Source: Mytilinidion resinicola (Eukaryota > Ascomycota > Dothideomycetes > Mytilinidiales > Mytilinidiaceae). Taken from it: DNA of 64,000 bases. Below are positions 1,131-21,450 of the stretch, in pieces. A program made the translations under genes and the position numbers. Location: contig NW_022985443.1 of NCBI RefSeq assembly GCF_010093595.1, forward strand, positions 1,016,928 to 1,080,927, given 5' to 3'. The first letter of the stretch is position 1. Each line of letters opens with the position of its first letter. The notes under the pieces are model-generated. The model ran no database searches. It was not told the origin of the DNA and saw only the letters and a program-made list of their open reading frames with translations.

Positions 1131-1261
1131 CTAATTTAATAGGTAAAGCACGTCCTAAACGTAGGAAGCCTCTTAAAGCCGCCCGTTGCACGAACCTACC
1201 GGGTAATAGAGGATGACGATTCTGACGACCCCCTATTCGACAAAATTGAAGTACAACCCCG

Positions 1262-1330
1262 TGCAGAGCAACAGCAGCAGCCGCCTGCACAGCAGCAGCC
1301 GCCTGCACAGCAGCAGCAGCCGCCCGGCTC
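1262..1330 (+). repeat. CAGCAGCCGCCTGCA tandem repeat in copia pol linker
   Basis: About four imperfect 15-bp units (CAG/CCG-rich) code for Gln/Pro-rich sequence in the linker between integrase and reverse transcriptase. Long antisense open frames across it are by-products of the repeat. Confidence 0.8.
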
Positions 1331-1394
1331 GCCGAGCTCAAACAACGACGACTGCTCCAGCAATGGCCGTTCGGAGCCTGCCTTGCCTACGCCA

Positions 1395-1575
1395 AATCCT
1401 ACGCCGTTACCTAGCCGTCTTCCTACGGCATCGCCTACGACCTCTGCTACGGTATCGCCTACGGCCTCTGCTACGGCATCGCCTACGGCCTCTGCTACGG
1501 CATCGCCTACAGCCTCTGCTACGGCATCGCCTACGGCCTCACCAACGGCCTCACCAACGGCCTCTGTAGTGGCTA
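1395..1575 (+). repeat. 24-bp minisatellite in copia pol linker (Pro-Thr-Ala-Ser repeats)
   Basis: About five imperfect copies of a 24-bp unit (core CTACGGCATCGCCTACGGCC) followed by shorter 'ACGGCCTCACCA' units. It is open in several frames; the pol-like frame gives a PTASATAS-type repeat. It lies in the variable spacer between integrase and RT. Confidence 0.85.
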
Positions 1576-1685
1576 CCACGGCAGCTTCCTTAAGGCCTAC
1601 CCGTGACCGCAAGCCGGCCAAACCCCGTGCAGCCTTGTATACAGCAATTGTATAAGCCGAAGCTCTAGACAAACGCCTACCTACT

Positions 1686-2352
1686 TTGCATGCTGCTTTT
1701 GCCGCAGGCGTTACCGGAGGCAGCTATCGAGAATCCCTTCCAGAGCCACCTAGAAACTGGAAGCAGCTACTGCAGCACCCCGAGCGCCAGGGGTTTATGG
1801 CAGCCGCTATTAAAGAACTCGACGGCTTGGTGGAACGCGGTAGCTTTACAGCTGTAGAAGAGACGCCAGAAATAAAGGCCCTAGCTGTGCCGGTCACCTG
1901 GGTATTTACATACAAATTTGATGAAAACGGCTTCCTTATGCGCCATAAAGCACGCCTATGCGTGCGCGGCGACCTCCAACAGCCTACAGAGCTAGACACC
2001 TATGCAGCTACGTTGGCCGGAAAGACCTTTCGGGCCTGTGCAGCTATCATCTGTGCAGCTAATCTTGATACCTGGCAGGCTGACGCTGTGTTGGCCTTTA
2101 CAAACCTAGAGCTAGACGAAGAAGTATATATCTACTACCCCGACGGTTTCCGCCGTAAGAGCTACCTGCTGCGTGTAAATAAAGGCCTCTACGGCCTCCG
2201 CCGTTCCCCCCTGCTATAGCTAAACGATTAATTGAAAACGCTGCGGGAATTGGGGCTTAAAGAGGTGCCCGGCGTGCCATGCCTGTTTGTTAATTAACAC
2301 CTGATTGTATTCTTCTATATGGACGATCTTGTAGCATGCTGCATGCCACAAC
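1686..2352 (+). pseudogene. copia reverse transcriptase, N-terminal half (cut by hAT insertion)
   Basis: An open frame of 177 aa (1686-2219) carries the copia RT entry motifs: 'WKQLLQHPE', 'VPVTWVFTYKFDENG', 'KARLCVRG', 'DVLAFTNLELDEEVYI' region and 'GLYGLRRSP'. It then stops at a TAG (about 2217) and continues in frame to 'FFYMDDLV' at about 2310-2335. The next bases are an 8-bp target duplication (2345-2352) and the hAT element. The missing continuation is on the minus strand from 18509 downwards; once one copy of the duplication is discounted, the frame runs straight across. Confidence 0.88.
2345..2352 (+). repeat. hAT target-site duplication A (GCCACAAC), left copy
   Basis: Eight bases immediately before the hAT copy 1 terminus. 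The partner is not at the other end of copy 1 but at 18510-18517 (GTTGTGGC on the plus strand, the reverse complement) beside hAT copy 2. Confidence 0.93.
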
Positions 2353-5277
2353 CAGAGTGGGGAACAATCAACTTAAGTTGATAGATTGATTGATTTGATT
2401 TGGTTCAACCAAATCAATCAATCAATCCGAAGAGGTGGATTTTATCAATCAAATCAACTTCAAGGCATCAAATTGATTGATTTGATTGGTTTGATTGATT
2501 CCTATTTGCGGAGCGTAGATAGAGTATCCTATAGAGAGCCCACCTAGCAGAAGTGCTTACTAAGCAGTCTCCTAACCCTGATTTTCATCCTAACTCACAT
2601 CAACGCGTCCAACACCATACCACCTCTGTACAATATCGCACCCAGCAATGAATCAGAACCTTCAGAACGTACAGCAGGAAGTTATCGCACGCGCAAATCG
2701 AAAGAAACCTCCCCGTAAGGTTAATTCTATGCGCGCCGAAGTCAACACGAATGAACACGTCGAAACACCTGCCACGAACAACGACGACGTTGACAACGAC
2801 AACCTATATGAGAACCTTAATTGGCTACGGGTACCGCATCTGCAGAGAAGGCCTTACAAAACCTTACAACCGTCAAAAGCAAGCTGGATTTACGCGTACG
2901 GTTGGCCTGTTTACCATTGAAAGCAGCGCCAGAAGTTCTGGCTCTGCAAGTACTGCCACATATACAGAATACCTAGCGGCGAGTTCAACGTTAAGAAGGC
3001 TACTTTGTTAGCTATAGCTCACCTAAGGCGGCAACAGCGTGGCCACAAGGTTAATAAAGATGGCCAGATTAACTTCTCTACTCTAAACCAGACATTAGTA
3101 TTGGCGATAATGCAGTTCCAGGGCATTAATGTTCCACAGGACGTGGCCAACAAGCTAGCGGACAGCTTTAATCGGGCGAAGTTTCTACGCGCTGTTTAAT
3201 ACTAGGTTGCTAATAATAATCAGGCTTTACGCATTATTAAGAAGCCTGCCTTCCGCAGCATAATTGCTGCTGCTAGACCTATTACTAAATTAAGCCTATA
3301 GAAGACCTATTATACACTCTAAAAATCTATTATAGCTAAGTATAATTCCTATATACCCGCTGTAATTAAACACCTCTAGTAGGCAACTAGCCTTATCTAT
3401 ATATTATTTAATAATTAGACTTTAGTTAGCAATAAGCGTGCACTTACTAGGATATATATATATTATCTAAATAAGAATAGCCGGCTAGAGGACTACTTAT
3501 TAGGCCTGCCTATTTTTCTAGGCCAGCACTTAGGCAAGAATATTACAGAAATAGTTAGCTTAATATTATAATTGTTTAAAATTAATACTAAGCGCCTTAG
3601 CTACTTTATACTTAATAATACTATAAATAATAATACTGCTTTAATAGCAATAGCCGATAAGTTTAAGTTTAGTATCTCCTAGTATTAGTTATACTATACC
3701 TGCTATATTCTTAACTTAGCTGCCTAAGCAATTATATAGGGTAAGGATAAGAAGGTATTTAAAAGTATAGATATAAATATATAGGTAAAATTATATCTCT
3801 AATTTTATTACTATTCTATATTATACTAATAGTAATATAGAAAAAAAAACTACTAATAGTAAAGTAAAGGAAAGCCGGGCCTATTAGGGTGCTATTTAAT
3901 ATTATATTATCTATTAGCGCCTTTCTATAAGCCTAAGAGCTATTTATTAAGCTATAGGCAGAGGACTTAAAGCGCTATAATAAATCTTATAAACTAAAGA
4001 AGCTTATTAAGCCTATTAGAACTTAGTAGAACTCTTACTATAATTACTTTAAGCGCGCCTATAAGCTCTAAGGCCTTTTTAACGCATATATATATATAAA
4101 GCTTAAGGAATATAATATTAAAGCAGTATCTCAGCGCAAGAATATAAAAAAGGAGAAACCGCAGTGCTTTATTAAGGAGCAAGGGCTAAACACAGGTAAT
4201 TAGGCAATAATTATAGAGTATAAGCAGCTGCTTAAGCTATTTAAAAATGCAATAATATAGCTATAAGGCAGAGGTTTAGCTAGTAGCTATAGAGCTATTT
4301 AGGAAGTTCTTATTATATTTAAATAGCTACTCTTAGCCCTTAAGGAGCAGAAGGAGAGGCTTAAGGCTATTAACTATAAAAATCTAAATATACCTAAAAA
4401 TTACTTAGTTATTAATATTAATACTGCCTATAAAAAGCTTATAGATTACTACAGGAAAATAGAAAACACCCCTATCTATTTTGCAGCTATAATACTTTAT
4501 CTAGTATATAAACACGCGCTTAAGGGGCTATAGAAGGTGCTAAAGGATTATAATATAAAGCGCGATAGGCCACATCTATATAAGAACTGGCTTTTAAATA
4601 GCTATAGCTCCTTCTAGCTGCTGTGGCAGGCATATAAGGATAAGGTGGCTGCAAAGGCTGCTGGCGCAGCATCTCCTACCTTGTCTCCTAATATAAGGCC
4701 TGCAAAACGCCGTTGAACAAGCCCTACAAACAACCGAGCAGACTTCCTTAGGAACTCTATAGAGGAGGGCAAGCAGGAGATAGAGGAAACTGTTAACAAC
4801 AAGTACAAGAGGTGGAAGCGCGAGCCAACTCTAAAACAGGACAACCTACTAGCGAAGGACCCTATTTAGTACTAGGTTATCACAAGAGATCGCTATCCTA
4901 TTCTAGGCCAGCTAGCCCTTGATATCTACTCCATCCCAGCCTCCTTAGCTAATTATAAGAGAATTTTCAGCGAACTTGGCGATCTCCTGGGCGTACGACG
5001 CCTTAATATAAAGCCTGAGTTACTTAGTGCTCTGCAATCTATACGCTCCTGGCGTCGAATTGGCATCAAACCTCCTAAGTAGTAATCAACTTATCAATCA
5101 ATCTATCAATCAAACCAATCAATTCAACTTGGGGGTCAAAAAGTATCAATCTCATCAACTCAACTTGAGCATCTCAGAAATTAATCAAATCAAATCAAAT
5201 CAATCACAGCCTGTTCAACGAAGCAATCAATCAACTTGGAGACGTCAAAGTTGATTGATTGATTGATCCCCACTCTG
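2353..5277 (+). mobile_element. hAT DNA transposon, copy 1 (2925 bp, RIP-degraded)
   Basis: Seen: termini CAGAGTGGGGAACAATCA (left) and ...TGATCCCCACTCTG (right) form terminal inverted repeats. Both ends are full of TTGATTGA/TCAATCAA subterminal repeats (2365-2500 and 5085-5265), typical transposase-binding arrays of hAT elements. The interior codes for a BED-finger/hAT-dimerisation transposase, heavily mutated to TpA-rich sequence at about 3200-4600. It inserted in the copia RT. It is exactly as long as copy 2, and positions pair as x and 23795-x. The 8-bp flanks differ on the two sides (GCCACAAC / AGGTGGCC), which is abnormal for one insertion and is explained by recombination with copy 2. 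Confidence 0.95.
2648..5082 (+). pseudogene. hAT transposase, degenerate (copy 1)
   Basis: The first open stretch starts at ATG 2648 ('MNQNLQNVQQEV...', 90 aa). It contains the start of a BED-type zinc finger: 'SWIYAYGWPVYH', then after a TGA 'FWLCKYCHIYR' and His-containing 'LLAIAHLRRQQRGH' near 2930-3045. The middle (3200-4600) has dozens of TAG/TAA stops from C-to-T/G-to-A change. The C-terminus (about 4858-5082) is clear: DP..Y.V..RDRYPILGQLALDIYSIPAS, then 'FSELGDLLG' and 'LLSALQSIRSW', the hAT family C-terminal dimerisation domain, ending at TAG 5080-5082. No functional protein is possible from this copy. Confidence 0.9.
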
Positions 5278-5285
5278 AGGTGGCC
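5278..5285 (+). repeat. hAT target-site duplication B (AGGTGGCC)
   Basis: Eight bases immediately after hAT copy 1. Its partner is at 21443-21450 (GGCCACCT on the plus strand, the reverse complement), beside hAT copy 2. Confidence 0.93.
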
Positions 5286-6202
5286 GAGAGTGAAGCAGTT
5301 GTGGGACCAGAGTACTTTTTAGTCCAAACTTGGTCAACGCTCTTTGAAATAACTTGGTTACACCTTGCAATGGGGGGCCAAGAATTTACCAAAGAAGGGA
5401 CTCGTTGTACTCTCTCCGGGGTCGATTGGCCATGTATCATTTAAGAGAGTGCGGAAGATTGGGAACAAGAAGCGGTGAGTTTATTGGAAATGGAAACCAG
5501 AAAAGCTGCAGAAAACTATTTCCATCCATATTCCCCAAAACAGTCAAGCTCTACTCATGCACGGGAAGTAAGCATTGGCCCGAAGGCAACGTCGTATATG
5601 TTTCAGTGACTGGGGCCCCTGGCGTTGAGGGTGACGACGGTGCCGCAACTAAGCCCTGCTCCGGAGTAAGTGACGATATACAGATTAGAAATATGACTGC
5701 TAATGGATGTTGTACCTTTGAGGTCGATGCCTACCATTAGCAAAGCCGACAACGACAACTACAGTATCCACATCCTCCCGGGCTGTGTTACGGAGGTTAA
5801 ACATATGTGTAAGCGTAGTAAGAGGGAACTCAAAAGGCCGCGATATAACCGACTGCATTAGCCAAGGCGGGGAGGCCATATATGCGGTTAGCTAGCGAGG
5901 GGGTTCCCCGGGAGCAATGATGTTTGTAGTAACCGCATTTACAACCGTCCATAATGCTCAACTGCAAAGTGCTTCACATCAGTCAGGGAGGTGATGCGGG
6001 ACAAGGGAAGTGCGTTGGTGTAAACATTACCTTGTTCATCCTTTTTGTGATAGGACAGTCTGGAACTCTCTACAGCATCCCATGGCGAATTATAAATAGT
6101 ATGCCAACCGCTTTTCAAGTAATATGCCACTGCTAACAAGGCTAGTTGCCAATGTTACTCTGATGAAGGTCTAGAAGTGGGACCAGTCTCTCAGGCAGCC
6201 CA
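5286..6202. other. unassigned DNA, possible decayed gene remnants
   Basis: Normal base composition. A 128-aa open frame (5354-5740, plus) contains Cys-bearing segments (YSCTGSKHWPEGNVVYV near 5549-5600; NGCCTFEVDA near 5701-5733), but has no signal peptide, and I recognise no family. A second frame picks up after 5740 ('NDNYSIHILPGCVTEV'). It may be the 5' part of the secreted-type pseudogene at 6203-6600 or a separate remnant. I do not call a gene. Confidence 0.4.
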
Positions 6203-6600
6203 TTGCAGCATTCCGAGCCTCCCTCGCACTTCCTAATTTCAAACTTCCTGGCGATAACCATCCCGGCCTCGAATGCTACCACCACAACAGCAGCGACTGG
6301 GCCAAGGGTAAAAAGGGCTTGGCCTGGGGATAGCGAGGCGTATTGCAACAAGGTTATGACTCCCGATGACGAGGTCCACATTGAGTTCAACGAATACTCA
6401 GCGGTGGGTATGAAAACCAATTTTGACGATCCTGATGAGCCGAACCAGGAATGCCGGGATTTTTCCAGCTAATTGTGGACGCCTGCATCGAGCCGGGGTT
6501 CCCGCGTGATGTGAGGTTTGGGGGTGAGTTGACCAACGCGAGGATGTCCCACATGCATCCTATCAGTGCATTGGCATGGGGGCCAAAATGAAAAGGTGGA
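6203..6600 (+). pseudogene. decayed small secreted-type protein gene (tentative)
   Basis: An 89-aa frame (6203-6472) ends '...YCNKVMTPDDEVHIEFNEYSA...PNQECRDF'. It is then cut by a frame change in the T-run near 6460-6466. The next frame continues in a matching way ('QLIVDACIEPGFPRD' then 'RFGGELT') to about 6590. The pattern ...CRDFF..IVD.CI......FGG.. resembles the C-terminal part of secreted hypothetical proteins common in Dothideomycetes (from memory; not searched). The apparent single-base indel makes it a pseudogene unless an intron is present. It lies at the edge of the inverted block, next to hAT copy 1. Confidence 0.35.
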
Positions 6601-7079
6601 AAGACACCTGGGCCCGGGTACGAGACTAGACTGTACGACGTTCGCTCGCAGTAGAGACCTTCAAACCGAGATACTAGCCGTTAGAACATATAACTATCAC
6701 GTGATGCTCTCCCACAGCGATTTCAGTAACCCTTCAATAGATTCAAGTCAGTGGATGTTGCACTCTGTCGGCGGGCCTTTCATGGGACTGATATGCGAAC
6801 CTGCTTCCCAATAATCTTCATTAAAAGAAGACGGGGCTGTTGAGAAAGGATCTTGCAATTTTGAAAGATAATATGCGTAAAATGCAGACATGACATCGAC
6901 GTCAACCTGACTGTGAAGCCCACTCATAATCCTAAGTCCCGCTACGCGACCCGCACTCACCATGCGCGCTCCTGAAAATGCAGCATAATAGCAGAAACCC
7001 TAACCCATGCTTTATTCCCGTGCGCTATGCAGCAGTTCCCAAGATGAAAAGCTGACCGGTTCCGGCCCGCAAAAAGTAC
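6601..7079. other. intergenic, 3' side of SAE2
   Basis: Only short shadow frames are seen on either strand. It contains the 3' untranslated region of the minus-strand SAE2 gene; no other feature was recognised. Confidence 0.5.
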
Positions 7080-9915
7080 TCACTCATCCCTAAAGATCCA
7101 CCGTCCGCCATCTCTCATCGCATCCCTCCATCGCTCTTCTACCTTAGCCCTATCAAGCTTCCTCGCCTCTTCCCTATCCTTCTCTGTCTCCTGTGTGGTC
7201 GGAAAATCAGTTCTCCAAAAGCCTGGCGGCGTCGATCTTCGCTCATAAGCCTGCTTATGTCTGCCATGCCTGTCTGCTAGCAGACGAGTCCGTGCCTGGA
7301 GTAATAGTTCTTCCTTTTCGTCGGTCGGCATACGGCTAATCCTTGCCACATCATATGCATCGCCCATGTAGTCTTGCAGCAAACGCGTTTCGTCATCAGC
7401 TTCGTCGTCCACGTCGAAGAGGCCTCTCGGAGCCGCTAAGGTTGGAGCAGCCATTGCGAGGGCTCGGAAAGCTGAGCCACAGCATTCGGGATTCGTGCAG
7501 CCTGGCAGACATTTTCGAGCATCCCGTCCACGAACGGTCTCGACAAAGGCATAGTCGAGACCTTGGTTGTAGGCTGGATTTGGCTTAAAGTGGTCTAGGG
7601 TAAGCTGCTCGACTGGACGAGAACGAAGAGCAATGTTCGATGCTCGAGAACCTGGACGAGATGCGGGTGACTTCGACAAATGGCTCAATGCGGATCTGGT
7701 AGTTGGAGTCGCTTGAGCTACCAATTTATCGCGAGTAGAGCGAGACTTTCCAGTCGTAGGTGGTGTTGGATTCTGCATAAGAGGGCGAATCGCGGACTGT
7801 CTGGCCGGAGTCCCATCACGCCCAACATAACGTCTTAGTTGATCAGTAACACCAAGACGCTCTCTTCCATCATCAGCAACTTTGCGTTTGCTAGTTGGGG
7901 TGTTCCTAGCAGCTTGCTCAATTGCTTTGCGCCTTCGCTTCCGAAGAGGCTCCTGCTCGCTGCTTTCAGTGAGGACCTTGGTGTTTGGATCCAGCGTATT
8001 CAAGACGCGTGATGTTGTGGTTGCGGGCTCTAATTGCTGAAATTCAGCAGGTGCGCTGTTCGCCCGGTCCTCTGCAGTTGTTTCTACATTGTCTAGATAT
8101 GTCAGCGCTGCTGTTGTTTCAAATAGTCTGACGTAAGGTTGATAGTCCCCACGAGGCTCATCTTTGACAGCTGGTTCGCTGGTAGATCGTTCATGGCGGA
8201 GTTTCTGGAGGGCTAGTAATCGAATGGACCCCTTCGTAGCACCAGGATTGAGGGGCGGGTGCAATATCCGTTTTCGGGGGGTGGCGATTCTGAAACCCAA
8301 TTCATCGAGGTCAAGCGTCTCGGTTCGATCTAATCTCCTCGGTGAGCGTAGAAGAGCTAGTGGACTACTGTGCAGTTCATCCTTCACGGGGATTGGTGTG
8401 GCAGATCCACCCTTTCGAATTTGATTGTCGTTGAAGACTTCCACGGTATCTGGCCCCCGCCTCTTTCGCTTTAGAGACTTTGCAGATACAAAAACCGGCA
8501 GGTCGTCGTCATCGGCTTGATCTATCGGCTGGATGACAACCATTCCTTCTTCAGTGGCTGCATCATCCTGGGTGGTTTGACTCGATGGTAACTTTTCGGG
8601 TGCTAACGGTCCAGCAACACTCGATGTGTCGAATGCAAAATCCATGATACCGATACCAGGGTCCTTGCTTGTCTCTAAAGAACCGCCGTGCTGGATTTCC
8701 TCAAAGATTGTCGAAGAGTCCTGGATTGACTCCTTTTCAGACTCGGTGTGCTCTCCGGCGCTCGATGTGTTAAACGGGAGGTCCAAGGTACGTCTTCTAA
8801 CAACGTCCCATACATGCGTATACAGCTCCTCCAGGCTCTCCAAGGGTAGCCGATCCAGGACCAGCCTTCTTCCCATCTCAGGGTCACTCCGCCGAACGAT
8901 TTCCTTTGCACCTTTAAGGTCTCGGCCCTTGACCTCTCTCCAATGTGCGCTGATGTATTGATGCAGCTCATGGGTTCGCTTAGCAGAGCTACCATCCTTG
9001 GAAGTATTGGCAAGATTGGCTTGAGCTGCATCAGGCACTGTTAGAGGGCTTTGGATTGTTTCCGTCTTTGAAGCCGATGGCCGGTCATCGGTGCTATGTG
9101 GCAACGTCGGAATGTTCGGCTGCTGGCTTTCCTCTTTGAGTAGAGTGACTTGTGGAAGCTCATCGAGAGGGCACAATCTATCCTCTGCATTCGAGGGTAA
9201 ATGCGGTATTGGCGAGCTAGTCCAGTCCGAAGGAGCTGTTGGGGGTGAAGTAGTTACTGAGGGGTTTAAGATCACCGTTGCTCCGTTGGCGGGAGCTAAA
9301 ATGGGCAAGCTGGACTTCTGACTGGGGCTTGCTTTCAATTCGGCGTACATCCGCTTCATTTTGGCTCCGTAAGCTTGCCATTCTTTACAAGAGTCTTTCA
9401 ACTTGTGGAATTTGTGGTCCCAAAGTTTGACCTTCTCTCTGAGACGTTCGTTTTCATCGATGGCACTTTCCAACGTCTCTTCAGTGGTAACGTTTCGCGT
9501 CCGGAGCTCCTCTAGCCTTGAGGTGAGATTGGCATAGTCCTCATACGGAACAGGCTTGTCTTTTTCTGCTATGGCGCCTTCCTGAGTCTTACTACTAGAG
9601 CCATTCTTTTCGTTTGAGGGCACTACTTCAGGTTGAAAAATAGGTAACTGGTCTTTCAATCTGTTGTTTTCTTGAAGGAGTTGGGCGTTCTTGATAACAA
9701 GTTCAGAAATGTGATCTATGAGGCTTTGCTTTTCTTCATCCCCTAGATAGCTAAATATGAGTTGAAATTCACTCCATGGGTTGTGTGTATAGTAAGATCG
9801 ACTTACGACGCGCTATTTCTGCCTCTAGGTTGTTGAACGCCACCTCATGAACGCGTGCCTGCTCGGCCAATACCGCGTTCTTGTGATTCTCGAACCACCC
9901 AGCCGGCTTCTCCAT
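7080..9915 (-). CDS. SAE2: DNA double-strand-break resection factor Sae2/Ctp1/CtIP
   Basis: Two exons: 9807-9915 and 7080-9742, with a 64-bp intron (9743-9806, GTAAGT..CTAG). Predicted product 923 aa. The start ATG (9913-9915) opens 'MEKPAGWFENHKN' and gives an N-terminal coiled-coil region (about residues 15-150), where Sae2/CtIP proteins oligomerise. The middle is long, Ser/Thr/Pro-rich and likely disordered. The C-terminus (about 750-923) has the family signature: CLPGC (781-785) and CC (790-791) in the Cys motif, then RHGRH (861-865) and PPGFW..DFP. In the family this protein activates Mre11-Rad50 endonuclease for 5' end resection in homologous recombination and meiosis, in the nucleus. 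It lies inside the inverted block and shares a divergent promoter with the F-box gene. Base composition is normal and the frame intact, so it is probably functional. Confidence 0.88.
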
Positions 9916-10129
9916 TGCATGTCCGGCGTGCTACAAGAGATAAGAAAACGCGTCGAGCTGTCGAAGTGTGGTGTTCTGTATCGTTGTCGAGGGCGCAAAT
10001 GGCTCGCAGGCAGCTAAAAGCACGGCGACCCGTTGGCACGTGATATTTGCCAAGTCCGCCCTGCCACTCGCGCGGCGACATCGACTTCTCCAAGGCACTC
10101 CTCTATAAGTTTACACCAACTCCAGCGCC
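9916..10129. promoter_or_regulatory. shared divergent promoter of SAE2 and the F-box gene
   Basis: Only 214 bp separate the start codons of the two divergent genes, so both must initiate here. No individual element is assigned with confidence. Confidence 0.6.
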
Positions 10130-11848
10130 ATGGTGAAACGCGCATATGATGAGGGCGGCCCTTCAGGACGAGCGCCCAAAGTTCCACGCCACGAATCGGT
10201 CGACCGGCTTTCACAACTCAGCGACGAACTGCTCCTCCGCATTCTATCTTTCGTTCCCACGTCGACTTTGGGCCTTTGTCAAAGGTAGGTTGCTCACATA
10301 TGTACCATATTTTCAGACACTAACATCTACAGGCTATCCCACAAGTTCCGGCGGATAGCGGGTGATTCGCAACTATGGAAGGCGGTATACTACAACCGCT
10401 TTGTACGTCCCAGAGCGTCTCGTCTACCAGGCATCAAAGACCCCAGCATGTCCTCCAATCACCTTTTTTACTCTTCGAAATTGTCCAAGTGGCTGGACGA
10501 CGAGCATCTTGTGCGGAGAGGCCAAGAGACAAACTGGAAACGGCAATATAAACTACGCCACAATTGGTCGCAAGGGAAATGTGCCGTTCGGGAGATATCT
10601 GTCACGGAGAAGCCACCGGTACCACCGCTAATAGTAAGCATGCATGAGGGAATTGTGTATACAGTGGACTCAATTGCAGGACTCCGAGCCTGGTCCTCCA
10701 AGAAGGACCGCAAGCTCATCGCCTCGGTCGAGCTTGAGACGCAAACGAACGGCAGCCCGACCTCCTTAGCAGTGGATACGCAGGAGTTGTCTATGAATCG
10801 GCACCGACTTGTGGTCGGTTTTGAGGACGGCCACTTCTCCGTTTACGAGCTTCAGGTACACACGGGCTGTTTTCTCGAACTCTATCACCACCCACAGTCA
10901 TCGAATGGCATGCTATCGGCAGTGGCGTACGCATCACCGTATCTCGTTACTATGACGGAAGGGCAACTGCTCTCGTTGTACAAGTTTCCAGAAGCAAAAA
11001 AGGACGACCTGGTGCAGGATCTGCTTGACCCACCACAATTGCTCCACTCTCTCCGGTCACATACTGTCAGCCCACCGCTGTCACTTACCATCCGGCCAGC
11101 ATCAGGCAGTATAATAGCTTCTATAGCGTACTCTGTGCCGACATACCTTTCCGGATGGTCAGTAGGCATTCAAGAGATGCGGTTGACATCCGATGGAGAG
11201 TTGATCGAATCACGACTGGCCTCCGCCGCGAACGATGACTTCCATTCTCTCGCTCGCTCAGGCCCGTTCTCCTCGCTGTCAACTCGGCCATCTTCCCCAA
11301 ATCTCGTTCCGGCTCAGGGCTCGTCTTTTGGGTCTCGGGACGCGCACGCTAAACCTACATCACTATCCTATTCTCACCCATATCTTCTGGTGTCTCATCC
11401 AGACAACACCCTTACGCTGTATCTGGTTACATCCACGTCTTCTTCACTATCGATTGGCCCCGGAAGCCGGTTATGGGGTCACACTTCCTCCGTCTCTGGG
11501 GCTCACGTTGGTGGCAGGGGTAAGGCTGTGTCTGTTAGTAACCACGGGGATGAATTACGCGTATGGGAATTGGAAGGAGGAATGGCGTCGTCGGCAACCA
11601 GGAGAAAGCTGGTCACTGGAGAGCTCAGCGTGCGACTCAGACCTGAGAATGGCGTGTCTTCTCAAAATCTGGATGCTATATCTGATGCAATTCTGCAACG
11701 AGGATTTGGCTTAGGCCTCGCCCTGGAGCATAAGATGGAGAGCATGTCGGTGACCCGTGGATGGGTGGGATTCGATGACGAAAATGTCATCGTTTTGCGG
11801 GAAAAGAGCCAAGGCAGTCAAGCGTTGGTTGTATATGATTTCACATGA
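10130..11848 (+). CDS. F-box protein with C-terminal WD40-like beta-propeller
   Basis: Two exons: 10130-10284 and 10333-11848, with a 48-bp intron (GTAGGT..CTACAG). Predicted product 556 aa. Residues about 20-70 form an F-box: 'LSQLSDELLLRILSFVPTSTL' pattern, then 'LSHKFRRIAGDSQLWKAVYYNRF'. From about residue 110 the sequence alternates blocks ending in short hydrophobic/Trp motifs ('GIVYTVDSIAGLRAW', 'LRVWELEGG'), consistent with a degenerate propeller. F-box proteins bind Skp1 and present substrates to SCF ubiquitin ligases; the propeller would be the substrate arm. The substrate cannot be inferred. The intron splits the F-box, and omitting it loses the N-terminal half. It ends at TGA 11846-11848. 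The frame is intact and base use matches the neighbours. Confidence 0.85.
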
Positions 11849-12480
11849 TCCTAGCTCCAGCAAGCATTAGATACCCCCCAGTTGAAGACTTAGCCCCAGT
11901 TGAAGACTTCTTTGTTATCGCTCACACCAGAAGCACCAAGTGAGTATGCAGTTCGCTTTCAGCGAGATCATCTTTTGAGCAAGCAATGAGACCCTACATA
12001 TGTTGAACAATATGCAGACCAAACCGCTGGGCAACCCTAGACAGTTTCTGCATGTTCCCGCTGCACTGAAATACCAAGGAAAGGAAAGGCGCATGTGGCG
12101 CGTTCAACCTCACTTTACATTTCTCAATACCTTCAAGCTTGACCACCATTAGACATTAGTCACTTGTTTGCATCTTGACATTTTTCTGCCTCTTCTAAGA
12201 GGAATTTGCTGGCATTCCAGTGGCCCCTCGTCATCAAACAAAGCCAGCGGCCTGGCGGCGACTCCCGGAGTAACCGCGGTTCGCTAGCCGCATTAGGACT
12301 AGCGCTTCCGACGGGGCACTTCTCAAAAAAACTCAAGAGCCGACTCTCAACTTTGTTACCGCCCATCGCCATCACCGCCACCGCAGTCGCCTTACAACAC
12401 TCGCTCGAGTGTGAACTGTCTGGCTAACAGCAATCAACAGTCTCTTAACTATCACTTCACCTTCAGTTCTCCCATCCCAC
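11849..12480. other. intergenic plus CNBP/Gis2 promoter and leader
   Basis: It contains a 16-bp direct repeat (CCCCAGTTGAAGACTT at 11876-11891 and 11894-11909) just past the F-box stop, then the upstream region of the zinc-knuckle gene. The 73-aa open frames near 12160-12427 have no family features and overlap the probable leader, so they are not called. Confidence 0.5.
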
Positions 12481-12556
12481 GTGAGTCCCCAGTAGACATC
12501 CGACAAAGTCGGGCGTCGCGCTTTCCTCGCGGACCGTTTTACTGACAACAATTCAG
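12481..12556 (+). other. probable 5' UTR intron of the CNBP/Gis2 gene
   Basis: A GTGAGT donor at 12481 and an AATTCAG acceptor ending at 12556 frame a 76-bp segment just 14 bp before the start codon. A leader intron is common in highly expressed fungal genes. Inferred from splice signals only. Confidence 0.55.
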
Positions 12557-12570
12557 GAACTACCTACAGC

Positions 12571-13589
12571 ATGGACTTCAACGCCGGTGCTGCCCCAGGT
12601 GGAGGACGCGGTTGCTACAACTGTACGTACTGACCGCCCTCGATTTTCTCGCATTGTGCTTTGCCCGCCCTCTTCTCGCGAGACATTCGATCGACTATGA
12701 TCTTCATTTGCCCTCAAAGTCATGTATCACGCACCCAACCTTCGATTCAGCGTCCCCCTTGTCAATCTCGACTCAACCCCATGTTCACCGTCTGTTTCGC
12801 CTCGAGCTTGTCTCCCAGTCAGCGGCCTGGAGAAAATGCCACTTCGAGAACCTTTGTTGTATGCACGGCATATCAAAGGCCTCGAGGTTCCATGGACTCT
12901 TGCTTACTCGCGCTTGTTTATTGTACCTCGCTGAAGCTTTGTTGCAATTACACATTGTGGTGGGCAATACTAATGGTGTTAAGGCGGTGACACTACCCAC
13001 CAAGCGCGCGACTGCCCGTCCAAGGGAAACCCCACTTGTTACAACTGTGGCGAGAAGGGCCACCTGAGCCGCGAGTGTACCCAGCCGCAGGCCGAGAAAA
13101 CCTGCTACCGATGCGGCCAAACCGGCCACGTCTCGCGTGACTGCCCGACCGAAGCGGCCCCTGGAGGCTTCGGAGGAGGAGCGGGAAGCTCCGGTCAAGA
13201 ATGCTACAAGTGCGGTAAAGTCGGTCACATCGCCCGTTCGTGCACTCAGAATGGCGGCGGTAGCTACGGCGGAGCCCCAGGCGGATACGGCGGAGGAGGA
13301 TATGGCGGTGGAGCCGGTGGCTACGGCGGAGGACAGCGACAGACGACCTGCTACTCTTGCGGTGGCTACGGCCACATGTCTCGCGACTGCACCCAAGGCC
13401 AGAAGTGCTACAACTGTAAGCCCACACGTCACACTTTCAAATCAAATCAGCTTGCTAACGTTGAATCACAAATCCATAGGCGGCGAAGTCGGTCATCTCA
13501 GTCGCGACTGCCCATCCGAGACCTCCAATGAGCGCGTCTGCTACAAGTGCAAGCAGCCGGGCCACGTCCAGGCTTCATGCCCCAACTAA
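12571..13589 (+). CDS. GIS2: CCHC zinc-knuckle nucleic-acid-binding protein (CNBP/Gis2/Byr3 type)
   Basis: Three exons: 12571-12622, 12984-13415 and 13480-13589; introns of 361 bp and 64 bp; product 197 aa. There are seven C-x2-C-x4-H-x4-C knuckles: [84 protein letters not shown] and [15 protein letters not shown] Gly/Tyr-rich, RGG-like linker lies between the fourth and fifth. Seven knuckles match yeast Gis2 and vertebrate CNBP, which bind single-stranded nucleic acid and ribosome-associated mRNA in the cytoplasm and act in translation control. Both introns interrupt the second Cys codon of a CYNC motif at the same phase (T|GC), which fixes the exon ends. It is intact, and long antisense frames across it are shadows of the Gly-rich codons. 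Confidence 0.93.
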
Positions 13590-14798
13590 ACTCTCCACCA
13601 CTCGCTTCGCCTACGATCGCCTGCCAAACTCTCGATACACCGGAAGACTCGTTTTCGCCGACAAAATCCTCTCAACCCTTTCGAGCCGCGGCCAGTCGAT
13701 GTTCGTTAAGCGCCTAATTTCTTTTCTTGTATCATGATTGCTCTTGTTCGCTCGGTGCCACCAGCATGTGGGCCGATTTTTGCACTGGATGTCCAATCCT
13801 GGAAGGATCCAAAAAGCACTTTTTGTCAGACAAGTTGGAAAACCAAGTTGTGTTAGCTTGGAAGGAAGCGACACTGTTCACTTGGGCTTTTTTGCATCGG
13901 ACTTTGGAGTCGGTAACGGCAGTCACGAAAATTCAATGAGTCATGGCATTCTGGTGTGATGAATGAGTTCCCGCTTGATGATGTTCCTCGGGACGATGTG
14001 TACGATAACTGAGCAGGACGGAATGTACAATACTCAGAATCAGACAACTTTCCGTTCGATACGTGTATCCATGGGGGGGGAGTGAGGCGAGCGCGAAGCT
14101 GAATGTCCTGTCAAGTCTCATGATATCATTTCCCGACACCGCTACTATCAGTCGTTGACACCTGTTTTTTCGGATTCCGTCTTCCTCCGCCGCAGTTCCC
14201 CACCTCAATATCAAGACGTCTCGGAGCTAATGCGGCATTAACTCTTTTAGGCATGTCCCAATCAACCCGATCTACAACAGTCGCTCTTCATACCGTCATT
14301 TTCCTGGTCACCAGCCCAGCGTACGGCCCTCGGGCTTCCACACCGGCTGGTGTTACCTGCCACTCTGCCATCGGCTAGATTGGCCCCAACCCCGCGTGTG
14401 CAGCCGCCCCGTCGGCGTCCCATCCGATGATGTACGAACGAGACTGTGTGAGGCTATTATGTGAGGCTAGCGGGGTGCGCGTTAACGTTGTGAAGAGTAC
14501 TGGCGAAGATGCGACAATTCGAATGGATATATTACGGCAGGCTGAGAGGTCGGTATCGTGAGTTTGTCGGAGAGGGAACTTCGGCTTGCAGATGCAGGAT
14601 GTTGGATGCGGTCTGGGGTGGACGGCAATGTCGATCGTGGGGATTATGGAGCTAGGCACAAGATGCTGAGATGCTAATGCTCCAGTAGTGACTAGTAGTA
14701 AGTACTATTTTCGCATTGGTTCATTTCACTGATCAGGCCTGCTGTTCCGTTTGGATCGTACCGTATTCTACTTACTAAGACTACACTGTTTTCCAGCT
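13590..14798. other. intergenic region
   Basis: It begins with the CNBP 3' UTR. Several 60-95-aa frames occur on both strands but none has a recognisable domain, signal peptide or consistent splice structure. Nothing else is called. Confidence 0.5.
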
Positions 14799-14927
14799 AT
14801 GCATTGCCAGTATTCAGCCCTCTTCACGGACTCAATCGCCCTGTCGACATTCCTCCTCCTCGGCCACATCTTCTCCATGCTCATGCCATTGGCATGGATA
14901 TATAACCGCATCCAGCGCTTCTGGTGA
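14799..14927 (+). CDS. possible small membrane-protein exon (hypothetical)
   Basis: A 42-aa frame 'MHCQYSALFTDSIALSTFLLLG...' has one strong hydrophobic helix (about residues 12-33) followed by a basic tail, ending at TGA. It is directly preceded by TTTTCCAG, a good splice acceptor, so it might be the last exon of a small gene whose first exon I cannot place. Equally it may be chance. No family recognised. Confidence 0.22.
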   Translation: MHCQYSALFTDSIALSTFLLLGHIFSMLMPLAWIYNRIQRFW

Positions 14928-15129
14928 AGACCCGTCCATCATATCCTGTCTTCTAGCCATAGACACTCACTTTTCTATGACCAGCCATTCAAAGAAGAAC
15001 TCCTGAGGTAATAACATGATCTGCGTCGATCGTTGGGAGCTATACTTTTGGGATCCACGTTCTTTGCCCAGCAGAAGAAGATGGACGTTGTCAATGGCGA
15101 GTCGTAATCGAGCCATTTACACACTCTGG

Positions 15130-15746
15130 TCAAGACACTCGCGTTTGGGATACATATGGTATTATTCCAGTTGTATTCCAGATCCGAAATAATCTTCTTG
15201 CGTAAGTTCTTGCAATCGTACCTTTGTAGGTTGTTGCAAAGACGTATGCATCGAACAGCTCATCGAAAGCTTCGTTGAATCCTGGAAGGTTGGTGTCGTT
15301 GCCTGCATGCGGCCCTTCGTCTGCGCTACGCTTGCGTTTCAGGCCTCTTTCGGTCCTGGCTCTGCTACGTGCCGCTCTGAACGTCGGTATGTGGCAGAGA
15401 ATCGACGAATCATTAAAATCCCACCGAAGCCACATATCGATAATCTCGAATGCCCGGACGCTTAATCGTTCAGAGTTACGACGCCGTCGGAGGACGTGTT
15501 CTCTGGAGCTTCAAAGAGTCTTCGGAACGTTGATGACGGTCCCCATACATCGTATAGTGCGTTCCTGGAGACCTGAAACGTCTGTTTCTCTTCGCCTTCA
15601 GATCCGACCTTGCATATCGCGTAGTCATCTGACTTCCAACTACCGGACATCAGGGGAGCTCGAAAACAAGAAATTACGGCGATGGAATACTTACCGGTCT
15701 AGCTCAGGTGGACCCTGAGACTCCCCGGCGCTGGCGGTAAGGACAT
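15130..15746 (-). pseudogene. BTB/POZ domain protein, broken (BTB-2)
   Basis: From ATG 15744-15746 a short exon ('MSLPPAPGSLRVHLS') hits TAG at 15699-15701. A GTAAGT..GTAG intron (15640-15694, 55 bp) then leads to 'KSDDYAICKVGSEGEEKQTFQVSRNALYDV', the start of a BTB fold, and 'FRRLFEAPEN...GVVTLND', the 'F.xxF.E....VxL.D' BTB segment. The frame ends at about 15462. One base off, it resumes with 'AFEIIDMWLRW', the next BTB helix, and runs to 15130 with 'LFDAYVFATTY'. One stop (CAG to TAG would fit RIP) plus one frameshift make it a pseudogene. BTB proteins typically mediate dimerisation or cullin-3 binding. Confidence 0.65.
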
Positions 15747-16287
15747 CTTGACTTTGGACGCGCTGTTTTGGTGTTGTGCTCTGGATGATCCACCAAGAGC
15801 AGTCTCCAACCTACAATCTAGGTTTGAGATACGCTTGCGAGAGCGCACCTTGTGGGAAGCATCCAAAATATATTCACCCCGAGTTTGCCACTTCAAAGCA
15901 GTTCCGGAAGCGTCAAGCGGGTATTAAAGCTTGCAGCACTTTCTGACATCAAACTGATTGATTTTTCAATCTCATCAGTAGTCTTTGCGAACTCGTCACG
16001 TAGAGCGTTTAGACATACAACGCTCTGGAAACTGAAATAACGATATTGCAGGCATCTCTTCATCCAACCAGAAGACGAATGTATTTCAAGGCGTTTCAAA
16101 GACCAGCTTCACAACCAACAAAGGCCGCCATCATCTATCAAGAGCCTTCTGCGGCGGATCAATAGCTTCGGAATGACTGTACCCAACGGCTCACTCGCTC
16201 CTCTAGTGGAAGCCGTCTTACTTGACATTACTGTTCCAGTTCTCCATATCTTTCTCGTTCCTCTTCATTCTCGCTCTAATAGACATA
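15747..16287. other. unassigned DNA between two BTB remnants
   Basis: A 68-aa minus frame (15893-16099) contains an amphipathic, coiled-coil-like stretch ('LRDEFAKTTDEIEKSISLMSE') but no recognisable domain or start context. It may belong to a third decayed gene. Confidence 0.35.
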
Positions 16288-17219
16288 CTAGTTAGGCGCC
16301 CAGCTTCTGACAATGTCATGTTCTGGTCGATACCCAGTTCGCCGTCCCCAGTGCCCGTCCTCGTCCTTATGTCGCTCGAACTTGAAGTCCCCCTCGATGA
16401 AATACTTCTCCCGCTTTTGCCGACATTCCTCGATCAATCTTTTGCCCACTTCACCAGATTTCTCATGTTCGTGATAGTAGCAGTTCTCAAAGAAAACAGG
16501 ATAATGTTCAGGCATACCATGCCAATCCATGGCTTTCAGTCTGGCCTCGGAACCTTTCTGAAACGCCTTAACTATCTCGACCAACATGTCCGGCGCTAGC
16601 TTGCCTAAAGCTGAGACTTCCCTAGGTCGTAACCCTCATCGACGGCTGCCTAGCCATATCTCCATGTCATGTATGCCAGAAGAGCCTTGACGAAAGGTGA
16701 GTCAGAATGGAGACGATCATGGCGTATTTCGAGGAGTAACGGGACCTCGAACCCTAGGGTGGCAGTCCAAGAACGCCTCTCCAATTTTTGAACGATAGCC
16801 TCGCGCAGATCCGGTACATCTGTGAAATCAGCGAAAATGTACAAATCGCGAAGCTTCATGATATCCTCTTGGCGTTGGTTTATGATAGCATCTGCCCACT
16901 CCCGGTACATTTTTGTGTTCTCTAATTTGTCTTCCTCTAATTCGTCTTCTTCTACTTTATCAATGTCCTTAGTATTATCACCTTCACTGCCTTCACAAGA
17001 CGCGATACTGCCATCATTCTCGCTTTCGTCTTCTTGTTCTTCCGGCGAAATGAGCAGCATTCCAGTCTCCAACCAAGCCGTGAAGAGCTCAATGGTTTCC
17101 ACACTTTCATCTTCAAGAGGAAGAACAACGCCGGTCTTTGACTCCCTGAAAGGTCCGGTCAAAGTGTTTTTATAATACTTGGATTTGGCGATAAGACGAT
17201 CTATCGGAACTACTCAGGT
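16288..17219 (-). pseudogene. BTB/POZ domain protein, truncated by copia insertion (BTB-1)
   Basis: Reading leftward from about 17210: 'VVPIDRLIAKSKYYKN', 'LTGPFRESKTGVVLPLEDES' and 'IELFTAWLETG' form the central and C-terminal part of a BTB domain. An acidic insert (Glu/Asp-rich, about 17060-16930) and the usual BTB C-terminal helices ('LRDLYIFADFTDVPDLREAIV', 'FVKALLAYMTWRYG') follow. A TAG (16650-16652) then interrupts it; after a frame change the coding sense continues (16288-16620, 'LAPDMLVEIVKAFQKG'). The N-terminal half of the BTB domain is absent: the frame meets an in-frame TGA and then the 3' LTR of the copia element at about 17220. The retrotransposon therefore appears to have landed in this gene; the missing part should lie beyond the window's left edge. 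Confidence 0.75.
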
Positions 17220-17430
17220 TGCAAATTGACGTGAACTCTGTCTTATTTCGGGGGCCCGAAGGCCAAACTATATACTACGTAGGAAGTGACTGTACGCGTA
17301 GGCAGAAGCACTAATTAGAGACAGCAGTAGGCACGGTAGGCACGGTAGGCCACCGTACCCCAACCCCTCTCTGTAGAAGTTGTAACTGGCTAGGCATGTA
17401 GGCAGCTACTATGCCAGCAACTCCAAGTCA
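17220..17430 (-). repeat. 3' LTR of the copia element
   Basis: A polypurine tract (AGTTGGGGGG on the minus strand, about 17431-17440) sits just after the pol stop and is followed by TGACTTGGAG, a canonical LTR start (17430). The far edge is uncertain: ...GTCA at 17227 pairs with the TGAC start, or ...TTTGCA at 17220. Length 204-211 bp. A GGCACGGTA short tandem repeat is inside (about 17330-17350). The other LTR is outside the window, so identity cannot be checked. Confidence 0.6.
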
Positions 17431-17511
17431 CCCCCCAACTTCGGAAGAGAGATGAGACTGTAGAAGTGCATGAGATATAGGAAATCTTGGCAATTTGTGG
17501 TGTTTGTAGGG

Positions 17512-18509
17512 CTATTTGTCGCCGTCGGATTCATTGGCCGTGGTGCCCTGGCCGATGCGATCGAATATATCAACGAGGTTGAGCTGTCGAACGAAATTCT
17601 CGTGTTTCTGTCGAGATAGGACCTTTGTAAAGCCGTCTGCTATCATACGTTCGGATGCAATCCATTCAATTTGTACGTTGCCGGCTTGTACTTCTTGGCG
17701 TAGCCAGTGGCTGTGTATATCAACGTGCTTAAGGCTAGTAGTAAGCTTGCTGCCGGCCGTTGTAAGTAGCCGGATGGTTTGCTGGTTATCGCACAGCACG
17801 GAAATGGCCTGGTTGCCCTCTAGGGCTAGATCTAGGTGTACAAATAGGCGTTGCCACCACATGAATTCCGACACAGCTGCCGATATAGCTGTAAGCTCTG
17901 CATCGGTGGAGGACTTCGTCACGTGCGTTTGTTTGGTGGCCTTCCAATCGACAGGGCCACCAAAAAGCTTCAGGATATATCCTTGTGAGCTTCGGCGTGT
18001 AGCAACATCGTCGGCAAAGCTGGCATCGCTGGCTCGTACAAGCATTTGATCGGTGTTGATCGTGGAGGCAGAATACTGCAGTGCATATCCCCTTGTTTGA
18101 TAGAGATAGGCAAGTGCTCGGTCAGCAGCATGGTGGTGAGCGGGCGACGGGTTCCTGGCAAATTCGGCCAGCCGTGAGGTTGTACGGGCTATATCCGGCC
18201 GTGTATTAATAGCTGCATAGAGCAATGACCCTATTTTCTGTTGATAGCCGTGGATAGAGGATGCACTGGCTGCTGCGGCTTCATAGGGAATAAGGCCATC
18301 TGTGGCCATCGGCGTATACACACGGAGGGCCTCCTTCTGCCGGAATTTGCCTGCAATTTTGTCGATATACAAATCCTGGCAAAGCCACAGTTGGCCGGCG
18401 GCTCGGTCACGGAGTATACGAATGCCTAGGAACCAGGAGGCTTCCCCTAGATCTTTCATCTCATACCGAGCTATCAGGGCATGTTTGAAATTGGCCAATT
18501 TATCGCCGT
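17512..18509 (-). pseudogene. copia reverse transcriptase C-terminal half and RNase H
   Basis: An uninterrupted frame of about 330 aa starts just inside the hAT junction. 'YEMKDLGEASWFLGIRI' follows the YMDD box in intact copia RTs. Then 'KIGSLLYAAINTRPDI' and the RNase H acidic residues in 'DASFADD', 'SSTDAELTAISAA' and 'CDNQQTIRL' follow. It ends '..NESDGDK' at TAG 17512-17514, next to the polypurine tract. It has no start codon of its own and is a fragment, but it is far less damaged than the 5' part. Confidence 0.9.
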
Positions 18510-18517
18510 GTTGTGGC
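18510..18517 (-). repeat. hAT target-site duplication A, second copy
   Basis: GTTGTGGC on plus, GCCACAAC on minus; it adjoins hAT copy 2 and is identical to 2345-2352. Confidence 0.93.
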
Positions 18518-21442
18518 CAGAGTGGGGATCAATCAATCAATCAACTTTGACGTCTCCAAGTTGATTGATTGCTTCGTTGAACAGGCTGTGATTGATTTGA
18601 TTTGATTTGATTAATTTCTGAGATGCTCAAGTTGAGTTGATGAGATTGATACTTTTTGACCCCCAAGTTGAATTGATTGGTTTGATTGATAGATTGATTG
18701 ATAAGTTGATTACTACTTAGGAGGTTTGATGCCAATTCAACGCCAGGAGCGTATAGATTGCAGAGCACTAAGTAACTCAGGCTTTATATTAAGGCGTCGT
18801 ACGCCCAGGAAATCGCCAAGTTCGCTGAAAATTCTCTCACAATTAGCTAAGGAGGCTGGGATGGAGTAGATATCAAGGGCTAGCTGGCCTAGAATAGGAT
18901 AGCGATCTCTTGTGATAACCTAGTACTAAATAGGGTCCTTCGCTAGTAGGTTGTCCTGTTTTAGAGTTGGCTCGCGCTTCCACCTCTTGTACTTGTTGTT
19001 AACAGTTTCCTCCATCTCCTGCTTGCCCTCCTCTATAGAGTTCCTAAGGAAGTCTGCTCGGTTATTTATAGGGCTTGTTTAACAGCGTTTTACAGGCCTT
19101 ATATTAGGAGACAAGGTAGGAGATGCTGCGCCAGCAGCCTTTACAGCCACCTTATCCTTATATGCCTGCTACAGCAGCTAGAAGGAGCTATAGCTATTTA
19201 AAAGCCAGTTCTTATATAGATATAGCCTATCGCGCTTTATATTATAATCCTTTAGCACCTTCTATAGCCCCTTAAGCGCGTGTTTATATGCTGGATAAAG
19301 TATTATAGCTGCAAAATAGATAGGGGTGTTTTCTATCTTCCTATAGTAATCTATAAGCTTTTTATAGGCGGTATTAATATTAATAACTAAGTAATTTTTA
19401 GGTATATCTAGATTTTTATAGTTAATAGCCTTAAGCCTCTTCTTCTGCTTCTTAAGGGCTAAGAGTAGCTATTTAAATATAATAAGAACTTCCTAAATAG
19501 CTCTATAGCTACTAGCTAAACCTCTGCCTTATAGCTATATTATTGCATTTTTAAACAGCTTAAGCAGCTGCTTATACTCTATAATTATTACCTAATTACC
19601 TGTATTTAGCCCTTACTCCTTAATAAAGCACCGCAGTTTCTCCTTTTTTATATTCTTGCGCTAAGATACTGCTTTAATATTATATTTCTTAAGCTTTATA
19701 TATATATATGCGTTAAAAAGGCCTTAGAGCTTATAGGCGCGCTTAAAGTAATTATAGTAAAAGTTCTACTAAGTTCTAATAGGCTTAATAAGCTTTTTTA
19801 GTTTATAAGATTTATTACAGCGCTTTAAGTCCTCTGCCTATAGCTTAATAAACAGCTCTTAGGCTTATAGAAAGGCGCTAATAGATAATATAATATTAAA
19901 TAGCACCCTAATAGGCCCGGCTTTCCTTTACTTTACTATTAGCAGTTTTTTTTTCTATATTACTATTAGTATAATATAGAATAGTAATAAAATTAGAGAT
20001 ATAATTTTACCTATATATTTATATCTATACTTTTAAATACCTTCTTATTCTTACCCTATATAATTGCTTAGGCAGCTAAGTTAAGAATATAGCAGGTATA
20101 GTATAACTAATACTAGGAGATACTAAACTTAAACTTATCGGCTATTGCTATTAAAGCAGTATTATTATTTATAGTATTATTAAGTATAAAGTAGCTAAGG
20201 CGCTTAGTATTAATTTTAAATAATTATAATATTAAGCTAACTATCTCCACAATATTCTTACCTAAGTACTGGCCTAGAAAAATAGGCAGGCCTAATAAGT
20301 AGTCCTCTGGCCGGCTATTCTTATTTAGATAATATATATATATCCTAGTAAGCGCACGCTTATTGCTAACTAAAGTCCAATTATTAAATAATATATAGAT
20401 AAGGCTAGTTGCCTACTAGAGGTGTTTAATTACAGCGGGTATATAGGAATTATACTTAGCTATAATAGATTTTTAGAGTGTATAATAGGTCTTCTATAGG
20501 CTTAATTTAGTAATAGGTCTAGCAGCAGCAATTATACTGCGGAAGGCAGGCTTCTTAATAATGCGTAAAGCCTAATTATTATTAGCAACCTAGTATTAAA
20601 CAGCGCGTAGAAACTTCGCCCGATTAAAGCTGTCCGCCAGCTTGTTGGCCACGTCCTGTGGAACATTAATGCCCTGGAACTGCATTATCGCCAATACTAA
20701 CGTCTGGTTTAGAGTAGAGAAGTTAATCTGGCCATCTTTATTAACCCCGTGGCCACGCTATTGCCGCCCTAGGTAAGCTATAGCTAACAAAGTAGCCTTC
20801 TTAACGTTGAACTCGCCGCTAGGTATTCTGTATATGTGGCAGTACTTGCAGAGCCAGAACTTCTGGCGCTGCTTTCAATGGTAAACAGGCCAACCGTACG
20901 CGTAAATCCAGCTTGCTTTTAACGGTTGTAAGGTTTCGTAAGGCCTTCTCTGCAGATGCGGTACCCGTAGCCAATTAAGGTTCTCATATAGGTTGTCGTT
21001 GTCAACGTCGTCGTCGTTCGTGGCAGGTGTTTCGACGTGTTCATTCGTGTTGACTTCGGCGCGCATAGAATTAACCTTACGGGGAGGTTTCTTTCGATTT
21101 GCGCGTGCGATAACTTCCTGCTGTACGTTCTGAAGGTTCTGATTCATTGCTGGGTGCGATATTGTACAGAGGTGGTATGGTGTTGGACGCGTTGATGTAA
21201 GTTAGGATGAAAATCAGGGTTAGGAGACTGCTTAGTAAGCACTTCTGCTAGGTGGGCTCTCTATAGGATACTCTATCTACGCTCCGCAAATAGGAATCAA
21301 TCAAACCAATCAAATCAATCAATTTGATGCCTTGAAGTTGATTTGATTGATAAAATCCACCTCTTCGGATTGATTGATTGATTTGGTTGAACCAAATCAA
21401 ATCAATCAATCTATCAACTTAAGTTGATTGTTCCCCACTCTG
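18518..21442 (-). mobile_element. hAT DNA transposon, copy 2 (2925 bp, inverted relative to copy 1)
   Basis: Same termini, same subterminal TTGATTGA arrays and same degraded transposase as copy 1. Length is identical (2925 bp) and positions correspond as 23795 minus copy-1 position. The two copies differ at scattered sites, mostly transitions (for example copy 1 CGCCGTTGAACAAG versus copy 2 CGCTGTTAAACAAG near 4709 / 19083). Its flanks are GCCACAAC on one side and AGGTGGCC on the other, each matching one flank of copy 1. Confidence 0.95.
18713..21147 (-). pseudogene. hAT transposase, degenerate (copy 2)
   Basis: Mirror of the copy at 2648-5082. The N-terminal 90-aa frame starts at 21147; the BED-like segment 'FWLCKYCHIYR' lies near 20840-20880; the hAT dimerisation segment and 'LLSALQSIRSW' end at about 18713. 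The middle is saturated with stops in the same AT-rich tract as copy 1. Confidence 0.9.
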
Positions 21443-21450
21443 GGCCACCT
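21443..21450 (-). repeat. hAT target-site duplication B, second copy
   Basis: GGCCACCT on plus, AGGTGGCC on minus; identical to 5278-5285, which lies beside hAT copy 1. Confidence 0.93.

Follow-up and report, generated by a model that had tools for sequence, protein, structure and literature searches.

The window, a 64,000-nucleotide stretch of the genome of Mytilinidion resinicola, a member of the Mytilinidiales in the Dothideomycetes (C7:1016928-1080927; 47.1 Mb in 44 contigs), contains two long, nearly identical hAT transposon copies in opposite orientation. It raises the question of whether the block between them has been turned around and, if so, whether homologous exchange between the copies or transposition itself did it.

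Two hAT copies with exchanged flanks

The two copies and their 8-bp flanks were located as follows.

2353-5277, plus strand: hAT copy 1, 2,925 bp, RIP-degraded, TIR CAGAGTGGGGA intact
18518-21442, minus strand: hAT copy 2, 2,925 bp, in the opposite orientation to copy 1 and 98% identical to it
2345-2352, plus strand: GCCACAAC, outer flank of copy 1 (partner, 18510-18517)
18510-18517, read on the minus strand: GCCACAAC, inner flank of copy 2 (partner, 2345-2352)
5278-5285, plus strand: AGGTGGCC, inner flank of copy 1 (partner, 21443-21450)
21443-21450, read on the minus strand: AGGTGGCC, outer flank of copy 2 (partner, 5278-5285)
5278-18517, no strand assigned: inverted segment of 13,240 bp, marked by the exchanged duplications and the halves of a copia element and a BTB-like gene

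The original prediction had placed two hAT copies of exactly 2925 bp each at 2353-5277 (plus) and 18518-21442 (minus), and both coordinates and lengths were reproduced. It had also described each 8-mer as common to the two copies and not the same on the two sides of one copy, and the flanks were found to be so. The order is GCCACAAC, element, AGGTGGCC for copy 1 and, in its own sense, AGGTGGCC, element, GCCACAAC for copy 2. Each breakpoint is thus occupied by one of two homologous hAT copies in opposite orientation, and their homology ends at the hAT ends. The copies differ at 59 positions, all of them transitions, with 0 indels and 0 transversions, and the TIRs of both are intact. Dimer_Tnp_hAT (PF05699) matched 4879-5079 of copy 1 (E 1.7e-10), in the C-terminal piece only; two N-terminal pieces of copy 1 gave no hAT match in Pfam. 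That the block was flipped between two near-identical hAT copies, with flanking scars revealing the original order, is very well supported.

A genome search returned at least 21 further hAT copies or parts, 16 of them with both ends readable; L017, L019, L023, L027 and L028 were left out because an end was missing or unreadable. Fifteen of the 16 readable copies have their own matching 8-bp duplication (14 exact, one with one transition), and 8-bp duplications fit the hAT superfamily. Flank-to-flank comparisons were then made among 18 copies (n = 1,224, at most one mismatch). Only the two exchanged pairs matched, and a chance match of the exchanged 8-mers is negligible.

The remaining readable copy, L030 (C7:704488-707362), is the only other one with unmatched 8-bp flanks (CTGTGTAC and CCCAGGAC). 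The genome search returned no partner for these flanks at up to one mismatch, and L030 possibly reflects a deletion between two copies. Several hAT copies at different sites (L018 and L019, also L017, L022 and L011) carry a large common set of RIP-type changes. C16 (L018, C16:482724-485591) and C7_97k (L019, C7:97371-99738) have about 235 such changes each and show 3 differences over 2,368 aligned positions. L018, L022 and L011 have perfect duplications of their own. RIP-dead hAT copies seem to have moved in trans.

A copia element and a BTB-like gene split by the inversion

Copy 1 lies inside a copia element, and the copia element lies inside a BTB-like gene. Parts of both were found at the two ends of the inverted block.

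1-2352, plus strand: copia 5' part, with RVT_2 in 1686-2219; its 5' LTR is outside the window
L032:6790-7006, plus strand: copia 5' LTR, some 2.1 to 1.9 kb upstream of the window
17212-18517, minus strand: copia 3' part, in the inverted block, including the 3' LTR, with RVT_2 in 17512-18498; supported by empty-site copies
17212-17428, minus strand: copia 3' LTR, 217/217 identical to the 5' LTR and inverted relative to it
17207-17211, minus strand: AGTTC, the 5-bp copia target duplication (partner, L032:6785-6789, directly before the 5' LTR)
16291-17213, minus strand: C-terminal part of the BTB-like gene, in two frames, with paralog matches; frame open at the empty site
L032:6348-6788, plus strand: N-terminal part of the BTB-like gene, outside the inverted block

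The copia 5' part had been predicted to end at 2352 and the 3' part to begin at 18509 on the other strand. The split of the RVT_2 profile bears this out: the left part covers profile positions 14-128, and the right part, on the other strand, covers 182-243. The further claim that the pol frame is continuous once one 8-mer is discounted holds at the junction, but the left part has in-frame stops at 2217, 2229 and 2295. The LTRs of a normal element are direct repeats. Here AGTTC borders each of the inverted LTRs on its outer side in the element sense. Because the LTRs are identical, the sequence suggests a recent date for the copia insertion and so for all later events. A short tandem repeat (72-bp match at 87.5%) lies within copia at window positions 1423-1566.

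The left flank of hAT copy 1 was used as the query in a genome search for other copia copies. In six of six, the two flanks adjoin each other, separated by a single 8-mer; these are paralogous copies, not the uninverted chromosome. For L049, the aligned ends overlap by exactly 8, with a right side that matches only 146 of 1,311 bases. For the other five, the local alignments were lengthened at their ends by up to 28 bases, and one of these five, L054, is only 67-71% identical. At the AGGTGGCC target, both flanks have one genome match each, which leaves no other copy for an empty-site comparison.

The N and C parts of the BTB-like gene adjoin the outer sides of the two copia LTRs. Brought together at the copia empty site, they give an open frame. 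The gene was split by copia and by the inversion. An upstream tandem paralog is 47% identical to the N part and 42% and 44% identical to the C part at the protein level. The second frame in the C part could be due to either a mutation or an intron. BTB genes had been predicted in the block; for the one examined, this was upheld in part, as the paralog has a weak Pfam BTB match (E 1.4e-4) but the pieces of the split gene itself have no Pfam match. SAE2, F-box and GIS2 genes had also been placed between the hAT copies, and Pfam profile matches confirmed all three.

7080-9659, minus strand: SAE2/CtIP gene (PF08573, E 6e-34), with a protein 100% identical to one of Mytilinidion resinicola
10448-11848, plus strand: pof12-type F-box protein (PF25499, E 5e-137)
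12983-13528, plus strand: CCHC zinc-knuckle (GIS2-like) gene (PF00098, E 6e-34)

SAE2 of Lophium mytilinum is 76% identical.

When the block is un-flipped, both hAT targets, the copia element, its LTRs and the BTB-like frame are all rejoined. An inversion between the hAT copies is shown by three features: the exchanged duplications, the two-part copia and the two-part BTB-like gene. The predicted inversion of 5278-18517 is thus strongly supported, and the copia empty sites, the LTRs with their 5-bp duplication and the split BTB-like gene are evidence beyond that on which it was first proposed. It had been called an unusually clean case of a known recombination class, and we agree that the example is very clean and that the class is already known. 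The ancestral gene order can be read from one haploid assembly through nested, independent marks, without a second genome.

A different origin, through independent insertion of both copies next to flanks that agree by chance or through movement of a composite element as a unit, is exceedingly improbable. Both targets have a GCCAC core, so some target preference may exist. Nevertheless, two exact reciprocal 8-mers are expected at about 4^-16 per given copy pair (equal base chances). The outer flanks differ, whereas a composite move should have left them alike. The copia halves and the BTB-like halves also match independently of the hAT flanks. The chance 8-mer match and composite-element transposition were both rejected on the flanks and the copia and BTB-like junctions.

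RIP marks and the kinship of the two copies

The 59 differences were polarized by taking A and T as derived states and a less-degraded copy, C8_754k, as the outgroup, in which 57 of the 59 sites are G or C. RIP in Neurospora prefers CpA. The CpA context accounted for 37 of the 59 differences, compared with 22% of C sites (p 4e-11). In the element sense, G>A outnumbers C>T by 22 to 4 in copy 1, and C>T outnumbers G>A by 25 to 8 in copy 2. Read along the chromosome, 47 of the 59 differences are G>A on the same strand (p 5e-6). Agreement between the two copies in the chromosome strand affected would by itself be expected half the time.

If RIP had preceded the exchange, or if the assembly had been mis-joined inside the copies, the polarity should flip in both copies at the point of crossover. 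A strand-polarity switch along the element, taken as a crossover mark, was not significant (p 0.24). An excess of minority-strand changes to the right of site 1133 (0/15 vs 12/44, p 0.026) was considered and rejected; it was post hoc and fails the strand-switch test (p 0.24). Compared with RIP after the exchange, an exchange after RIP at a random point had a mean likelihood ratio of 0.17-0.21, about 5-6 times less likely; this ratio is an average over all crossover points and presupposes RIP that acted chiefly on one strand of each copy. The strand bias and the lack of a polarity switch indicated that the last round of RIP probably came after the inversion, and they also make a mis-join within the elements less likely. 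The strand argument is compatible with an exchange in the outermost ~240 bp.

A mis-join at the two hAT copies, with a real chromosome that is not inverted, is improbable. A chimeric assembly at two inverted repeats would give exactly such a pattern. However, a join inside the element should flip the RIP strand polarity, and no flip was seen, although a join in the outer ~240 bp would go unnoticed by this measure. The copies are also distinguishable, as they differ at 59 sites with neighbouring sites at most 184 bp apart. In addition, the contig is 2.06 Mb long in an assembly of 44 contigs, and the window is without N.

Other hAT pairs were compared in the same way. Opposed bias was also found in C9_141k against copy 1 (21:43 and 41:19) and in C4 against C10_314k (4:10 and 9:3; all G>A to C>T in the element sense). 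The bias is therefore an ordinary product of RIP, and the clock argument rests on its evenness along the element and not on its opposition between copies. The strand bias of C9_56k and C17 was balanced, and that of C4 and C16 was 15:5 and 7:10 (G>A to C>T). Private RIP sites were enriched where other copies were also hit (22/45 vs 26/290 in C9_141k). Several other pairs had a like enrichment, among them C4/C16 against C9_141k (14/22 vs 45/244), and others had no enrichment or too few sites. We read this enrichment as RIP hot spots; shared ancestry or conversion are the alternatives. In the first 225 bp, RIP-type changes were 0/85 in copies 1 and 2, 27/83 in C9_56k, 26/85 in C17 and 18/85 in C40.

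The pattern resembles that of Neurospora, where C>T or G>A changes are clustered on one strand and, according to the available text of PMC7296669, 91.9% of RIP clusters hold only one change type. Unlike there, as far as that text goes, the bias serves here as a clock for a rearrangement, and it is 47/59 over all sites and not exclusive. RIP strand polarity may place a repeat-mediated rearrangement before or after the last round of RIP. It may also expose a mis-join within a repeat, and both uses could be explored in other RIP-active fungal assemblies.

The relationship between the two copies was examined with the same outgroup, C8_754k. Copies 1 and 2 have 242 RIP-type changes in common, 16 of which are absent from all five other full-length degraded copies. 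Derived sites shared exclusively between copy 1 or 2 and any of those five numbered at most 2, and C9_56k, C17 and C40 share 19-28 such sites per pair among themselves. Exclusive sharing would mark kinship, and is open to parallel RIP. The two copies are mutually nearest over the whole length and in four of five segments. In segment 0-1100, C10_314k appears nearer, over its 435 readable sites only; in segment 2300-2925, the lead of the copy 1/copy 2 pair is small. Judged by these shared changes, copies 1 and 2 are sisters. Maximum chi-square analysis against 11 other copies detected no breakpoint of chimerism in any comparison (lowest permutation p 0.29). Sister copies would give no chimeric signal even after recombination, so the absence of chimerism fits either hybrid insertion or recombination between sister copies. 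Likewise, sister copies would result from a hybrid insertion as well as from a local hop and subsequent recombination.

Homologous exchange and hybrid element insertion

The exchanged duplications had been taken to prove homologous crossing-over. This was too strong, since hybrid element insertion yields the same exchange (PMC2775673). As described in the available text of Delprat et al. 2009 (PMC2775673), the two processes have strikingly similar outcomes and differ in the copies, which are identical after hybrid insertion and chimeric after recombination. Exchanged target duplications alone do not decide between recombination and aberrant transposition.

The account we favour, with moderate confidence, consists of a copia insertion, two hAT insertions, a homologous exchange and later RIP. 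A copia retrotransposon would have entered the BTB-like gene with the 5-bp duplication AGTTC. A RIP-degraded hAT with intact ends would then have entered copia at GCCACAAC, immediately downstream of the YMDD motif of the reverse transcriptase. A sister hAT copy would have landed at AGGTGGCC in the opposite orientation, about 13 kb away. Homologous exchange between the inverted 2.9-kb copies would have flipped 13,240 bp and swapped the inner duplications, and a later, strand-biased RIP round would have put most of the 59 differences on both copies. We infer host recombination as the cause, this order of events and RIP as the last of them. Recombination was favoured because 2.9-kb inverted repeats, once present, are good recombination substrates and because alternative transposition is less frequent than the standard kind; we judged it only moderately likelier than hybrid insertion. 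What counts against it is that its positive hallmark, chimeric copies, was missing in all 11 comparisons.

In hybrid element insertion, there would have been one hAT, and an aberrant transposition involving the sister chromatid would in one step have inverted the block, added the second copy and created the new 8-bp duplication. We consider this possible but doubtful. The same exchanged duplications are predicted, but with identical instead of chimeric copies (PMC2775673, available text), and the 242 RIP-type sites common to both copies, the lack of chimerism, the restriction to transitions and the lack of a significant polarity switch count in its favour. The 59 differences, being all transitions, are compatible with RIP after the inversion. 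hAT elements such as Ac/Ds are known for alternative transposition, which is nevertheless reported to be rarer than the standard kind (PMC8225341, available text). The ends of the element are intact and 15 of the 16 other copies keep a matching duplication, and it may be a cut-and-paste element competent for transposition. On the other hand, a local hop with later recombination would also account for the sister relationship. It is tentatively proposed that a transposase from elsewhere moved a RIP-dead hAT by one-step hybrid transposition, making both the inversion and the second copy. If true, the locus would hold a one-step hAT inversion of natural origin in a fungal genome, and the later RIP strand would date the inversion as older than the last RIP round.

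Homologous exchange, the preferred reading, has its closest parallel in the Galileo inversions 2j, 2q7 and 2z3 of Drosophila buzzatii (PMC2775673). According to the text available to us, these have inverted transposon copies at both breakpoints with exchanged duplications, and the uninverted sites have a single target copy, as the paralogous copia copies do here. Galileo is a P-superfamily element that makes duplications of 7 bp, and chimerism has been demonstrated for its 2z3 copies (PMC2775673). In contrast, the present case involves a fungal hAT with 8-bp duplications, a 13-kb block and RIP, and no chimerism was seen. A further difference is that an older copia element and a split host gene serve as internal controls.

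Inversions caused by Ac/Ds and fAc in maize are also similar in the hAT superfamily, the 8-bp duplications and the transposon at each breakpoint (PMC8225341, available text). Reversed-ends transposition in maize uses two direct copies, and the fragment between them is lost; this mechanism, with linked direct copies, does not fit here because it would lose the intervening fragment (PMC8225341). At the present locus there are two inverted full copies, and nothing was lost at the copia junction. Among ascomycetes, the DNA transposon impala of Fusarium has reportedly caused rearrangements through non-standard transposition (Hua-Van et al. 2002, as cited in PMC8225341). Impala is a Tc1/mariner element, of a superfamily other than hAT. 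A literature search, at the level of titles and abstract openings, met no fungal hAT inversion with exchanged duplications, and we do not claim that none has been described.

A large nested repeat block was also observed elsewhere in the window, at 28873-58060. Within it, 38085-45723 matches 47729-55423 in inverted orientation at 86%, and further related repeats are present. From its sequence, this block perhaps consists of nested LTR elements.
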